From IMG/VR virus record IMGVR_UViG_3300044695_002129, positions 1 to 39,245 of that record: a stretch of 39,245 bases of DNA; one strand, 5' to 3'. Of the stretch, positions 4,392 to 15,996 are shown piece after piece. Source of the stretch: a virus. Within the stretch, counting starts at the first letter, position 1. Each line of letters opens with the position of its first letter. The notes beneath the pieces were generated by a model, which was given only the letters and a program-made list of their open reading frames with translations, made no database searches and was not told the DNA's origin. A program made the translations under genes and the position numbers.

Positions 4392-4787
4392 ATGGGTTAC
4401 ACAAAACCTGAACTACGAGCAAGAATACTGTCCTCCGTTAAAGCAGGAACATCAGGCGGTGCTGCAGGACAATGGTCAGCCCGCAAAGCCCAACTCGTAG
4501 CACAACGCTATGAGAAGGCTGGTGGAGGCTACACAGGAGCCAAAACCAGCAAACAAAAATCATTGTCCAAATGGACTAAAGAAAAATGGACAACCAAATC
4601 AGGTAAACCATCCACTGTAGGACCCAAAGCAACAGGTGAACGCTACCTACCAAAAAAGGCTATAGCAAACTTGTCATCGGCAGAGTACGCCAAAACTAGT
4701 GCAGCGAAACGCAAAGGCATCGCCGAAGGTAAACAGTTTGTTAAACAACCTAAAACAATAGCGAAAAAAACTAAAGGATACAGGTAA
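4392..4787 (+). CDS. DUF5872-like basic protein
   Basis: 131 residues from ATG 4392, chosen over an in-frame GTG at 4371 because AAAGGA sits eight bases upstream. The signature MGYTKPELRARI, GGAAGQWSARKAQLVAQRY, KAGGGYTG and KSLSKWTKEKW matches, as I recall it, the DUF5872 family found in marine phages and giant viruses. The C-terminal part is Lys-rich (KRKGIAEGKQFVKQPK). It overlaps the next start as TAATG, and the partner is also of a family seen in large viruses. No enzymatic motif is visible. The high positive charge suggests nucleic-acid binding; function is unknown. Confidence 0.75.
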   Translation: MGYTKPELRARILSSVKAGTSGGAAGQWSARKAQLVAQRYEKAGGGYTGAKTSKQKSLSKWTKEKWTTKSGKPSTVGPKATGERYLPKKAIANLSSAEYAKTSAAKRKGIAEGKQFVKQPKTIAKKTKGYR

Positions 4788-5050
4788 TGCCCAAAACTGC
4801 TGCATGGACAAGAAAAGAAGGCAAAAACCCTAAAGGCGGACTAAACGCTAAAGGTCGTGCTTCCTATAAAGCACAAACAGGTGGCACCCTAAAGCCACCC
4901 GTCACAGCGAAAGCAGCAGCCAAATCCCCCAAAAAGGCTGCAAGACGCAAATCGTTCTGTGCCAGAATGGGTGGCATGCAGGGACCAATGAAAGACTCCA
5001 AAGGACGACCAACACGCAAAGCATTAGCATTGCGAAAATGGGACTGTTAG
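4787..5050 (+). CDS. DUF6321-like basic protein
   Basis: 87 residues with the characteristic order AWTRKEGKNPKGGLNAKGR, LKPPVT, RKSFCARMGGM and a C-terminal LRKWDC. I recall this pattern as DUF6321, common in cyanophages and other aquatic viruses. Three conserved-looking Cys/His-type positions are limited to the SFCARM and KWDC cysteines. The frame overlaps the preceding stop as TAATG, so the two genes form a coupled pair. It is strongly basic, with clustered KAAAKSPKKAARRK. Function is unknown; DNA or RNA binding is inferred from charge. An A/T hairpin terminator follows. Confidence 0.75.
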   Translation: MPKTAAWTRKEGKNPKGGLNAKGRASYKAQTGGTLKPPVTAKAAAKSPKKAARRKSFCARMGGMQGPMKDSKGRPTRKALALRKWDC

Positions 5051-5053
5051 TTC

Positions 5054-5079
5054 AAAAAATATAACACATTATATTTTTT
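5054..5079 (+). terminator. A/T-rich hairpin terminator
   Basis: AAAAAATATAA (5054-5064) pairs with TTATATTTTTT (5069-5079) around loop CACA, and T7 continues at 5074-5080. It lies four bases after the stop of the 87-residue gene. It is the likely end of the first two-gene transcript and could work on both strands. Confidence 0.55.
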
Positions 5080-5929
5080 TATGACCCACCCCTCATATCA
5101 AAATTATACGCATTGGCTCTACCTCCTATTATAAATAAATGTGAGTAGGGGCGTACCCCCCCATGCTCCCCCATGCGTGTGTACCTGTGGCTAGGTGAGC
5201 AGACTGGCTGTTTTTGATTATGATTTGGTGCCATAATCACCTGTCAAAACATTATGGTGCAGTATAATCATGCGCATGTATTCACAAACGCACACAAGCA
5301 CACACCTAGGCATGGCGGAAGGTCCTGACCGATGCCATGTTACCGATGGGTATATGCCGTTTTGATTCATGTGCTTTGCGTGAATCTCGTGTGCATTATG
5401 CTCAGGGAGATATCGCTGAAAAGTCAACGGGATGAATGACTTGCAATTTGATTTTCCATGATTCATACTATTGGGGTCGGCAACGGCATATCGTCCCCTA
5501 GATGCTTAGGGCAATTGGCGGTAAGCGGTACGACAGGAATGAGCGTCACGAATCGTTCCGCCACACTTGCAGTCACCGAATGGCGTTCGTCATTCGGAAC
5601 GGGATGCGGTTGGAGCCATAGGGTAGCCTAGTGAGTACGAGTAAGAATCGTATATCGGCGTAAAATGGCACGGACAATGTTTACATTGTTCAACATGGAT
5701 GATTTGTCGGATAATCTGTAGATTATGTTTGATGGTCGTATTTGAGGTGGCATCGCTAGGGTTTGGGTGCTGTGTATGATACGAAATTGGGCATAATCGG
5801 AATTACGGCAAGTTGTCATGCAATGTCCTTGTGATTGAATGTTCATGTTCACGAGGTCACGGTAAGCACACAGGCAGTGTGCCAACCGCAAGTATGGACC
5901 AGCATTATGCTGTAGAGTGCTTGTGGTTG

Positions 5930-5960
5930 TAGCGAGGTTCAATTCCTTGCCTTTCCGCTA
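5930..5960 (+). other. tRNA T-arm-like element
   Basis: CGAGG (5933-5937), loop TTCAATT, CCTTG (5945-5949) has the stem and loop size and the TTCAATT loop of a tRNA T arm. The flanks TAGCG (5930-5934) and CGCTA (5956-5960) can also pair. No acceptor 5' strand or acceptable anticodon arm is found upstream, so this is not a complete tRNA gene. It may be part of the large RNA, a tRNA mimic or a remnant. Confidence 0.45.
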
Positions 5961-5980
5961 ACCCCGTTGGGGTTATTTAT
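5959..5980 (+). terminator. Intrinsic terminator closing the noncoding region
   Basis: TAACCCC (5959-5965), loop GTT, GGGGTTA (5969-5975), then TTTAT. The seven-base stem with an A/T tail ends 24 bases before the next start codon. It fits the 3' end of the candidate structured RNA. Confidence 0.65.
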
Positions 5981-6004
5981 AAACGATTCAACTGGAGGTT
6001 GAAT

Positions 6005-6328
6005 ATGAAACTTGAGCAAATTAATCCTAATCATATGGATTCACCTATGTTTAGGGCAGATAAATTGCGAAATGTTGGCAATTGGTCCTTTTATGACTTC
6101 CTATCGGAAGATGCGATTCAGTGTCGTATGGTGATTCATCATGGTACGAGAATGGGTCTTTTCACTCAACAAGATTGGGGATGGGCGTTCGTTCCTGAGT
6201 CCATTGGTTGGGGCAGTGCATCGGACCAACAAGGTATGCAAAAGTTGATGCCTAGCGGTTGGAAGTTCCGTAGGAATGGTGGATGTCCTCGTTATGAGTT
6301 GAATGGTGTTCTTCAAGAAATTATCTGA
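6005..6328 (+). CDS. Hypothetical protein, 107 aa
   Basis: The start ATG 6005 is set by GGAGG at 5994-5998, six bases upstream; the same GGAGGTTGA-type site recurs before several genes of this arm. The protein is soluble and rich in Trp and Met (MDSPMFRADKLRNVGNWSFY, FTQQDWGWAFVPESIGWG). No domain, zinc site or membrane segment is recognised. Its stop codon lies inside the first hairpin of the structured leader that precedes the AAA+ gene. Confidence 0.75.
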   Translation: MKLEQINPNHMDSPMFRADKLRNVGNWSFYDFLSEDAIQCRMVIHHGTRMGLFTQQDWGWAFVPESIGWGSASDQQGMQKLMPSGWKFRRNGGCPRYELNGVLQEII

Positions 6329-6517
6329 ACTAAAGTTCAGTGGGACGGAATAGCAAGTCAATTTGACTTGGGCAGTGCAATTCTGCTACCGTCTACGATG
6401 TCCCACATTGTGGTACACGATGTCCTAGCAATCCTGCTAGGGGATTATGGTGGTCCCGACTTGTCGGGGCATTAGATGTCCGTGAACGGACAGCCATTCA
6501 ATTGCATGGAGGTAAAC
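6325..6517 (+). promoter_or_regulatory. Structured leader with serial hairpins before the AAA+ gene
   Basis: Consecutive helices can be read. CTGAAC-TAAA-GTTCAG spans 6325-6340. The stem GACGG/CCGTC continues into TAGCA/TGCTA (6344-6355 with 6384-6393). CCTAGCA-ATCC-TGCTAGG spans 6424-6441. CCCGA-CTTG-TCGGG spans 6455-6468 (its outermost G can pair on). TGTCCG-TGAA-CGGACA spans 6477-6492. GTGGGAC (6340-6346) can pair with GTCCCAC (6400-6406), but that excludes both the GACGG stem and the local CCACA/TGTGG hairpin (6403-6413), as in attenuators. GATGTCC occurs three times at the base of hairpins. It may be a regulatory leader or a set of processing sites. Confidence 0.55.
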
Positions 6518-7798: not shown

Positions 7799-7841
7799 TG
7801 TCGGGTTCATTTCATAAACGAACATCAACTGGAGGTTGATT

Positions 7842-8733: not shown

Positions 8734-8776
8734 CTTGATGTAATATAAAAATAAATTAGCAACCTAGGAGGTTGAA

Positions 8777-13245: not shown

Positions 13246-14316
13246 GTGGCTCCTGATTACGAGGAGCGTTGGGCAAAACTCGGACGGGGCGAAAATATCG
13301 CTCCGTCCGATTTGTCTATAACGCCAAAGTTTTCTTACTACGAACCGTTAGTTCGGGCTGCCGATGATTATGTTCATTGGGCGCAAACACCCAACGAACG
13401 CATCTACTTGGGCTTTGAAAACATTGATTCCGAGATGCGAGGCATCGCACCCTCAGAACTATGTTTAATCAACGGATACTCACATAGCGGTAAAACGCTT
13501 GCGTTGCTACAAATCTTAGTGGCGAACCGTGATAAGCGTGTCGTATATTTCTGTCCTGACGAACCACGCACACTAACCTTAATTAAGTTGGCGTGTGTTA
13601 TGCACGGTGTGGATTCTAAACAGTTGGAACAACAAATCTCATCCAATGACCGTTCCGCTATATCGCTGTTAAAAGAAACTGCGACAGAACATTTCCCAAA
13701 CCTAGCGGTCTTTGACCAAACAGTATCCATGCTTGACATGGAGCGTGCATTAGCAGAAGTATCCGATGCTATGGGCGACCCACAACTTATCGTTGTGGAC
13801 TACTTGGACCTGATTACAGGTGGCGGTGAAGATGTCCCATCCAAAGCGAACGCCATAAAAGCGTTCGGCAAACGCCATAATAAACCGTTGCTAGTGTTAC
13901 ATCAATCCAGCCGTACTTCAGGTGCCGATGGCAAAAAACAAACCATCAGTTCTGGTGCTTATGGTGGTGAGCAACAAGCAACACACATCATAGGTGTACG
14001 CCGTAAACGCTTTGAAATAGAAGCACACATCCGTGACCTCCAAGACAAGTTGGAGCGTGCCACCAACACAGAAAAGATTATGGACCGCATAGAACAACTA
14101 CAATACGACTTGCGTATCCACATGGATACCCTGACATTGAACCTTGTGAAATGCAAGCGTCCAGCATCCAACCTGCTAGATGACATGGACTTTACTATTG
14201 AGTACGGAACAGGCAGATTGCATAAACTGGACAGCAATGTTTTACCTTGGCGTGAGCCACGCCCTATCGTGGATGGGGAACAACTCGTTATAGCCGACAG
14301 TCTGGAGGACTGGTGA
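13246..14316 (+). CDS. DnaB-like replicative helicase (RecA-fold core)
   Basis: 356 residues, GTG start at 13246. Walker A is GYSHSGKT (77-84). Walker B is in LIVVDYLDLITG (181-192), followed by a sensor-like LLVLHQSSRTSG. The loop GAYGGEQQATHIIGVRRKRF fits the DnaB C-terminal ATPase. The DnaB N-terminal primase-interaction domain is missing, as in several phage helicases. The ribosome site is weak and the start is probably reached by coupling from the gene ending seven bases earlier. It overlaps the primase gene by four bases, so helicase and primase are made together and likely act as the replication-fork pair. Confidence 0.85.
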   Translation: MAPDYEERWAKLGRGENIAPSDLSITPKFSYYEPLVRAADDYVHWAQTPNERIYLGFENIDSEMRGIAPSELCLINGYSHSGKTLALLQILVANRDKRVVYFCPDEPRTLTLIKLACVMHGVDSKQLEQQISSNDRSAISLLKETATEHFPNLAVFDQTVSMLDMERALAEVSDAMGDPQLIVVDYLDLITGGGEDVPSKANAIKAFGKRHNKPLLVLHQSSRTSGADGKKQTISSGAYGGEQQATHIIGVRRKRFEIEAHIRDLQDKLERATNTEKIMDRIEQLQYDLRIHMDTLTLNLVKCKRPASNLLDDMDFTIEYGTGRLHKLDSNVLPWREPRPIVDGEQLVIADSLEDW

Positions 14317-15236: not shown

Positions 15237-15403
15237 TAGTTCAAATCAGATGCAGACAATGTGCGGTAACCATCACATATGACCCAACACAACTTGTGTC
15301 ATGCAACTGTGACCCTGATGCCACATCATGGGTTGCTTTAGATAAGACCGCAAAACTTATAAAGATGTCAGGTTCTAACATAGAAATATTGGAAGAAAAA
15401 TGA
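15233..15403 (+). CDS. Zinc-ribbon-like small protein (56 aa)
   Basis: Begins at ATG 15233, overlapping the primase stop as ATGA. It has the pattern IRCRQCAVTI followed by LVSCNCDPD, i.e. a CxxC and a CxC about 17 residues apart, then an ATSWVAL segment and a beta-type tail (KLIKMSGSNIEILEEK). From memory it resembles DUF7695-type phage proteins of the RCKKC...CSCG class. Its function is not known; the position between primase and protease-like genes gives no strong hint. Confidence 0.65.
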   Translation: MIVQIRCRQCAVTITYDPTQLVSCNCDPDATSWVALDKTAKLIKMSGSNIEILEEK

Positions 15404-15996
15404 CAACAATAATCGCCTACCAAGGAGAAGGATACTCACTATTATGTTCAGACTCACGCATTTCATCTATGGATTCGTCAGGGCTTGTGTCGCAGATTTC
15501 TACGACAGGTGGAGCCAAAATTGCCACCAACGGAAAATATTTGTTGGGAGCCGCAGGCGACATGCGAGCCATAAACATCCTTCATCACGCCTTCACGCCA
15601 CCCACCCCTCCTACGGGAATCAAAGGACTAGATAAATTTATTACAGTTTCGTTTATACCTGAGTTACGAAAATGTTTTGACGCACAAGGCTATTCGCTAC
15701 CTGAACGAGACTCATCCGAACACATAGCGGAACAGGGTTCAACTATACTTGTGAGCGTGAACGGTGTCATCTATGTTATTGACGGTGATTACAGTTGGGC
15801 ATCGGACACAAATCGTTTATACGCTTTGGGTACGGGCGCACAGTATGCGCTTGGTGCTTTACAAATTCTTGCAGGAAACAAAAAGTTACAACCGTTACAA
15901 GCAAAATCTATTACATTAAAAGCAATCAATGTTGCCTCTAGGTTTGACCCTCACACTGGTTCTCCTTTTCACACATTCATTCAACAAACAAAGTAG
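15400..15996 (+). CDS. HslV/proteasome-like Ntn hydrolase
   Basis: 198 residues starting MTTIIAYQGEGYSLLCSDSR. After removal of Met the N-terminal Thr would be the nucleophile, and Asp18 (mature 17) in SDSRIS corresponds to the conserved proteasome Asp17. Lys40 in GAKIATNGKYLLGAAGDMRA stands near the place of Lys33. Later LYALGTGAQYALGALQI and ITLKAINVASRFDPHTG match the GSG...A and AxxIA...D segments of HslV. There is no HslU or other unfoldase in the window apart from the MoxR-like ATPase. Similar proteins occur in uncultured phages, but their substrate is unknown. It could process phage or host proteins; this is inferred from fold only. Confidence 0.75.
   Translation: MTTIIAYQGEGYSLLCSDSRISSMDSSGLVSQISTTGGAKIATNGKYLLGAAGDMRAINILHHAFTPPTPPTGIKGLDKFITVSFIPELRKCFDAQGYSLPERDSSEHIAEQGSTILVSVNGVIYVIDGDYSWASDTNRLYALGTGAQYALGALQILAGNKKLQPLQAKSITLKAINVASRFDPHTGSPFHTFIQQTK

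Follow-up and report, generated by a model that had tools for sequence, protein, structure and literature searches.

The DNA analysed here (the window) is a viral record of 39,245 bases from a podovirus-type phage, with a P22-like portal, a DnaB-like helicase and an AEP primase. On its + strand, approximately 950 gene-free bases separate a small, basic DUF6321 gene (4787-5050) from P0001, a short gene followed by a gene for a CobS-like ATPase. Comparative analysis of this locus points to a large structured RNA and two tRNA-like elements (TLEs), arranged as follows:

About 5090 to 5860 (~770 nt, ends approximate), + strand: body of the large structured noncoding RNA, predicted from homology, RNAalifold, covariation and the lack of a conserved frame
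5861 to 5960, + strand: TLE1, the last 100 bases of the large RNA, a complete tRNA-like element
5959 to 5975, + strand: 3' hairpin directly after TLE1, with which it shares UA
5986 to 6004, + strand: hairpin ATTCAACTGGAGGTTGAAT with an 8-bp stem, carrying the Shine-Dalgarno sequence of P0001 directly before its ATG
6005 to 6328, + strand: P0001, a small gene (107 aa) flanked by TLE1 and TLE2, with relatives at the same place
6343 to 6398, + strand: TLE2, a compact 52-nt three-way junction after P0001
6518 to 7789, + strand: P0002, the CobS/MoxR-like AAA ATPase gene (PF07728, phrog_249), downstream of TLE2 and used as synteny anchor

P0001 has no match in Pfam or PHROGs. The CobS protein is nearest to those of Gordonia and Mycobacterium phages, and the terminase to that of a freshwater spring phage. 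At the DNA level, the DUF6321 gene resembles marine Pelagibacter and Synechococcus phages, and it also matches several unrelated families of phage proteins at their C-terminal end. Positions 15400-15996 hold a gene for a Proteasome/HslV-like peptidase (PF00227 below threshold, phrog_1040). To our knowledge, large structured phage RNAs have no assigned function, and for most of them the way in which their ends arise has not been described.

Conservation and structure of the large RNA

Homology can be aligned from ~5085 to 5960 in syntenic phage contigs. Many IMG/VR contigs carry homologues of the large RNA with the order of the surrounding genes unchanged, at DNA identities ranging from 80% down to ~42%, and about 20 distinct, diverged phage contigs carry it at the same place. 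Among isolated phages, blastn gave no match to the RNA, and an early search matched only the DUF6321 gene. A near-invariant motif close to the 5' end, CCCCCCCATGCYCCCC, is carried by 108 stretches of viral contigs, many of them homologous by nhmmer. In bacterial genomes the exact motif was found on nine contigs, none homologous by nhmmer, and prophage copies in bacterial genomes were rejected on that basis.

The first-pass annotation had proposed a structured noncoding RNA of about 900 bases in the early arm, and the homologues bear this out. A conserved reading frame, which it had named as evidence to the contrary, runs through the region in none of them, and 46 of the 51 indels relative to close relatives are not multiples of three; a protein-coding region is rejected because no frame is conserved across homologues. 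The + strand folds with a stability z-score of -3.65 (0 of 20 shuffles as stable), although the - strand also scores -3.33. For 12 homologues, RNAalifold yields -336.8 kcal/mol, compared with -190 to -209 for 10 column shuffles. When the structure was derived from the window's clade only, 65% of the double-changed cells in the other clade (n=552) were canonical; the shuffles gave 44% (at most 51%) and slid partners 35%. The 3' half (5532-5859, 17 sequences) has 95.9% of cells paired versus 80.8% in shuffles, compensatory changes in 33 of 64 pairs, and a covariation score of 0.498 versus 0.219 for shuffled and 0.06-0.13 for slid controls. Covariation among homologues, suggested earlier as a check, is therefore strong relative to shuffles; a tree-aware G-test over the whole RNA, which has little power with 17 sequences, returned a single pair with E<=0.05, and the statistical case is therefore carried by the shuffle, slid and out-of-sample controls.

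Regarding strand, the 3' half contains 162 GU and UG cells and 3 AC and CA cells, an excess that marks the + strand as the RNA, in agreement with the preference that G-U pairs had suggested in the window alone; the opposite strand is rejected on these counts. Judged from these sequence comparisons, the region is a conserved structured noncoding RNA of the + strand, in which the following parts can be delineated:

5114 to 5126, + strand: 5' strand of a long-range helix (5114-5121 with 5611-5618, 5122-5126 with 5601-5606) that closes the 5' domain
5155 to 5170, + strand: C-rich motif CCCCCCCATGCYCCCC, near-invariant and close to the 5' end of the RNA, conserved in each of the 14 sequences aligned in A1
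5536 to 5559, + strand: covarying hairpin (alignment A8, helix 1; 100% paired, compensatory changes in 3 of 5 pairs)
5577 to 5596, + strand: covarying hairpin (A8 helix 2; 95% paired, 4 of 8)
5615 to 5669, + strand: covarying helix 5615-5619/5665-5669 enclosing hairpins (A8 helix 3; 100% paired, 4 of 5)
5672 to 5691, + strand: covarying hairpin (A8 helices 6 and 7)
5698 to 5817, + strand: long covarying arm, 5698-5709/5806-5817 and 5721-5733/5786-5798 (A8 helices 8-10; 12 compensatory pairs)
5824 to 5859, + strand: covarying hairpin abutting TLE1 (A8 helix 11; 6 of 8)

The helix beginning at 5114-5126 has 88-93% of cells paired in 12 sequences and is mostly conserved, not covarying. A 10-bp stem noted earlier (5352-5361 with 5482-5491) is perfect in the window but poorly paired in relatives: across 12 homologues it retains 10, 9, 5, 8, 6, 4, 4, 5, 4, 5, 4 and 4 of its 10 pairs, and with 4-6 pairs in most of them it is not supported. 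The relatives fall into subfamilies A and B (the latter comprising L019, L110, L186, L187, L089 and L222), which have the 5' domain in common and differ in the 3' half. Within the long arm, segments 5712-5717, 5722-5728 and 5792-5798 have two mutually exclusive pairings, both apparently conserved in relatives: either AUAAUC-UGUA-GAUUAU forms a local hairpin, or GAUUAUG pairs with CAUAAUC at a distance of 65 nt, which makes a switch possible. The near-palindrome GCATTATGC occurs twice, at 5393-5401 in the 5' half and at 5902-5910, where it caps the TLE1 long arm. The first of these is widely conserved and could let copies of the RNA contact one another.

The earlier suggestion of membership in GOLLD or ROOL did not hold, and a new class, its other proposal, fits better: the Rfam check that it recommended left 5050-6010 without a match at E values as high as 10, and no Rfam family is matched by the large RNA or by the TLEs. 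GOLLD (RF02032) is likewise a large structured phage RNA, near 800 nt, with tRNA genes nearby in some members. However, its model finds nothing in the region across 10 phage records, with only sub-threshold scores of 8.1 and 5.7 bits elsewhere (cut-off 150). GOLLD also has a universally conserved 3' region and a less conserved 5' part, whereas here the 5' part is shared and the 3' part varies between subfamilies; unlike GOLLD, moreover, the present RNA ends in a tRNA mimic. ROOL (RF03087), also a large structured phage RNA near tRNAs, has no match in the same number of records, but its control genomes were equally silent; the Rfam scan was also without ROOL. On the covariance models, GOLLD/ROOL membership is rejected. 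The association with tRNAs that had been expected from these classes holds for several relatives but not for the window, in which ARAGORN finds no tRNA. The large RNA is immediately preceded by a genuine tRNA-Asn (GUU) in L002 (6871-6946), L012 (2509-2584), L042 (4187-4262), L035, L091, L081 and L073, and a tRNA-Lys is found upstream in L100.

The RNA might nevertheless be of the same functional type as GOLLD and ROOL, a self-assembling RNA cage, with TLE1 as a permanent 3' domain for end protection or for docking to the tRNA or ribosome machinery. Its size, its location in phages and the tRNA-Asn neighbours in relatives match the description of those RNAs (PMC12286853), and the GCATTATGC hairpins could contact other copies. 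We regard this account as quite improbable: there is no sequence or structure match to either class (with the ROOL controls silent as stated), and the fold of TLE1 recurs in TLE2 behind a protein gene, so that TLEs are not confined to the large RNA.

Two tRNA-like elements flanking P0001

A T-arm-like element had already been recognised by the first-pass annotation; it proves to be part of a whole tRNA-like domain, and this domain at the 3' end, like the second element after P0001, had been missed in a reading whose large structured RNA is well supported. The parts of the two elements are as follows:

5861 to 5866 with 5951 to 5956, + strand: acceptor stem of TLE1
5867 to 5881, + strand: D-like hairpin of TLE1, loop AGGCA with invariant GG
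5883 to 5929, + strand: long arm of TLE1 in the anticodon position, a triloop-capped long hairpin with the internal loop GGAC/UAGA
5932 to 5950, + strand: T-arm of TLE1, loop UUCAAUU
5957 to 5960, + strand: 3' GCUA of TLE1, replacing RCCA
6343 to 6348 with 6389 to 6394, + strand: acceptor stem of TLE2, followed by linker AAUAG, a hairpin (6354-6370), the T-arm (6371-6387, loop UGCAAUU) and 3' ACGA

The four-way junction of TLE1 is identical in the unconstrained minimum-free-energy folds of the window and three diverged relatives, the loop of the D-like hairpin reading AGGCA or UGGUA among these four. With a covariance model built from ten relatives, TLE1 of the window is matched at E = 2e-16, and L007, L012 and L011 are matched as well. 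Across 19 sequences, 98.7% of its cells are paired versus 80.9% in shuffles, compensatory changes affect 24 of 38 pairs, the covariation score is 0.547 versus 0.196 shuffled and 0.06-0.11 slid, and GU and UG cells number 105 versus 1 for AC and CA. Neither ARAGORN nor Rfam (RF00005) calls TLE1 a tRNA. Its 4x4 internal loop (5896-5899 with 5913-5916) is present in nearly all members of subfamily A and lost in L011, and may be a protein or tertiary contact.

A scan for a T-arm with a paired acceptor returned exactly two elements in the window, TLE1 and TLE2, and none in 40 dinucleotide shuffles, both strands included; many matches of one motif scan were ordinary tRNAs and were set aside. TLE2 has 98.4% of cells paired and a covariation score of 0.383 versus 0.162 shuffled, and its model (R2) gives one strong match in each of seven phage records, including the window, always at this locus. 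The order of large RNA, TLE1, small gene, TLE2 and CobS is kept in L042, L071, L095, L067 and L045, where CobS identity is only 37-42%. In subfamily B, the large RNA ends in a single, still smaller TLE of 45 nt.

The imitation of tRNA extends to details. An acceptor stem, a T-arm with a UUCRANY-type loop and D-loop purines, which characterise the elbow of mascRNA-type elements, are all present, and both TLEs have the 12-layer acceptor/T stack. Where tRNAs carry RCCA, R-C-N-A follows the 12-nt stack 3' of the T-loop in 50 of 53 distinct elements (GCTA 24, ACGA 16, ACTA 6, ACCA 4). The scan itself imposed the 12-nt 3' stack, whereas R-C-N-A was not a search condition; a scan with neither imposed returned the same elements. 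In addition, the D-loop equivalent GG goes with T-loop UUC/UCC (12 elements) and UAG with UGC (13 elements), with no exception in 25 (Fisher p = 2e-7, uncorrected for kinship). The sister elements of L095 and L067, otherwise near-identical, carry AAGG..UUC and AAUAG..UGC, respectively. As far as the sequences can tell, this association is what a real tRNA elbow predicts.

Such details bear on the idea that the TLEs arose by decay of tRNA genes, or as attachment-site fragments derived from a host tRNA 3' end. The T-arm and acceptor 3' half are indeed tRNA-like, and a real tRNA-Asn lies near in several relatives. We give this idea hardly any credence, since the 5' acceptor strand covaries with the 3' strand, the D and T loops covary, the elements are kept in pairs over large divergence, and no integrase was found among the subset of window proteins scanned. 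Very improbable as well is a role as tRNA decoys occupying host tRNA-binding factors or tRNA-cutting defence enzymes: non-CCA ends would keep the TLEs out of translation, and they conserve elbow and acceptor but have no anticodon identity, yet two elements at fixed transcript positions and in low copy number better fit a cis signal, and there is no anticodon loop for anticodon nucleases.

Predicted processing of the early transcript

The closest parallel to TLE1 is offered by mascRNA and menRNA, found at the 3' ends of the human lncRNAs MALAT1 and MEN-beta (PMC11693755). In the crystal structure of mascRNA, the two Gs of a reduced D arm meet the T-loop, a longer arm takes the anticodon place and junction linkers are absent, and the elbow so formed is regarded as the feature recognised by RNase P and RNase Z (PMC11693755). 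RNase P gauges how far the cleavage site lies from the elbow and accepts non-tRNA T-arm/acceptor stacks such as those of tmRNA, MALAT1 and MEN-beta (PMC4919913), and it also processes the precursor of the phage P1/P7 C4 RNA and some mRNAs (PMC11143913). TLE1 is similarly a tRNA-like element ending a long noncoding RNA, with a T-loop elbow, an acceptor/T stack, a reduced D arm with two Gs, an elongated arm in the anticodon position and no junction linkers. Unlike mascRNA, to which CCA is added later, the TLEs belong to phages, show no sequence kinship to it and end in 3' R-C-U/G-A; the phage system also has a second compact element after the next gene, and its processing is a prediction.

Other RNAs are less close. 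The C4 antisense RNA of P1/P7 (RF01695) also comes from phages, and host RNase P cuts its precursor, but it is a small antisense RNA, and Rfam finds no match to it in the window. The tRNA-like domain of tmRNA likewise has a D-loop/T-loop elbow and is an RNase P substrate; tmRNA, which neither ARAGORN nor Rfam found in the window, has a large insert within the anticodon position, whereas here the large RNA lies 5' of the acceptor and there is no tag frame. A canonical tRNA has an anticodon loop where TLE1 has a long triloop hairpin.

Given the substrate range of RNase P and the mascRNA features found in TLE1, TLE1 would set the 3' end of the large RNA and TLE2 would separate messages. An early + strand transcript would run through the ~770-nt RNA, TLE1, P0001, TLE2 and the CobS-like gene. 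Each TLE would copy the part of tRNA measured by RNase P and RNase Z, that is, the T-loop/D-loop elbow and the 12-layer acceptor/T stack followed by R-C-N-A, and host RNase P would cut 5' of each element, at ~5860/5861 and 6342/6343, in parallel with its action at the mascRNA element of MALAT1. RNase Z or exonucleases would perhaps act thereafter. The first cut would free the large RNA and define its 3' end, and the second would separate the P0001 and CobS messages.

The TLEs are thus most likely RNase P-type processing signals that set transcript ends, an arrangement which suggests that these phages mark transcript cutting points with tRNA look-alikes. Sequence comparison shows the structured RNA and both tRNA-like folds, together with where they lie and how they are conserved; we infer RNase P recognition, the cut sites and a free large RNA. 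To the full proposal, of a new large phage RNA whose 3' end is set by TLE1, with RNase P cuts separating this RNA from the P0001 and CobS messages, we give slightly better than an even chance. By analogy with GOLLD and ROOL, the released RNA may act as an RNA-only assembly. A more far-reaching joint reading, held tentatively and at clearly less than even chance, is that tRNA-mimic punctuation with CUA/CGA ends flanks a small early gene, that TLE1 has the ornate RNA excised by host tRNA-processing enzymes to become a free RNA-only assembly, and that this punctuation is a convergent counterpart of MALAT1 3'-end formation.

Several features count against the processing proposal. The TLE 3' ends are mostly RCUA/RCGA, not RCCA, so the contact between RCCA and RNase P would be weakened. 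U75-A76 of TLE1 can pair into the following hairpin; its acceptor in the window has a U-U mismatch (6 of 7 paired counting C5860, which can pair with G73); an extended D hairpin competes in L007 and L012; and members of subfamily B yielded no TLE2.

An unlikely alternative to processing is that the region forms an uncut, structured 5' leader of the P0001-CobS operon, in which the TLEs control ribosome access, termination or stability in cis, through tRNA-elbow-binding proteins or by folding alone. It would accord with the shared strand, the position ahead of P0001 and CobS, constant throughout the relatives, and the placement of the P0001 Shine-Dalgarno sequence in a hairpin right after TLE1, as well as with the lack of a clear terminator there. 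The hairpin at 5959-5975, previously taken for a clean terminator, is real and covaries (alignment A6, helix 7: 99% paired, compensatory changes in 4 of 7 pairs), but its U-tract is poor, and in many relatives a U-tract is missing; an intrinsic terminator after TLE1 is rejected, as there is no proper U-tract and a terminator scan does not call the hairpin. On the other hand, ~770 nt would be very long for a structured leader, and the exact tRNA geometry, with its 12-layer stack, elbow covariation and RCNA, would be superfluous for a plain leader hairpin.

Both large phage RNAs and tRNA-like processing signals are known kinds; what is new is their combination, with the signals in a pair. A literature search, with most subscription journals outside its reach, turned up no account of phages of this kind using tRNA-like elements as transcript ends. 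If processing occurs as predicted, one class of large RNA gains a concrete and testable answer, a 3' end marked by a tRNA mimic, as a phage counterpart to what was described for nuclear lncRNAs and plant virus RNAs. The natural compensatory series in stems and elbow would define what the recognising enzyme must read, and the compact element of 50 nt, consisting of elbow and acceptor only, would be useful as a minimal RNase P substrate and transcript-end signal.

Short hairpins directly before start codons of + strand genes occur at 7824-7840, 8760-8774 and 14298-14312 as well as at 5986-6004, with the Shine-Dalgarno sequence GGAGG in or beside the loop (e.g., ATTCAACTGGAGGTTGAAT-ATG), and the same is seen in relatives.
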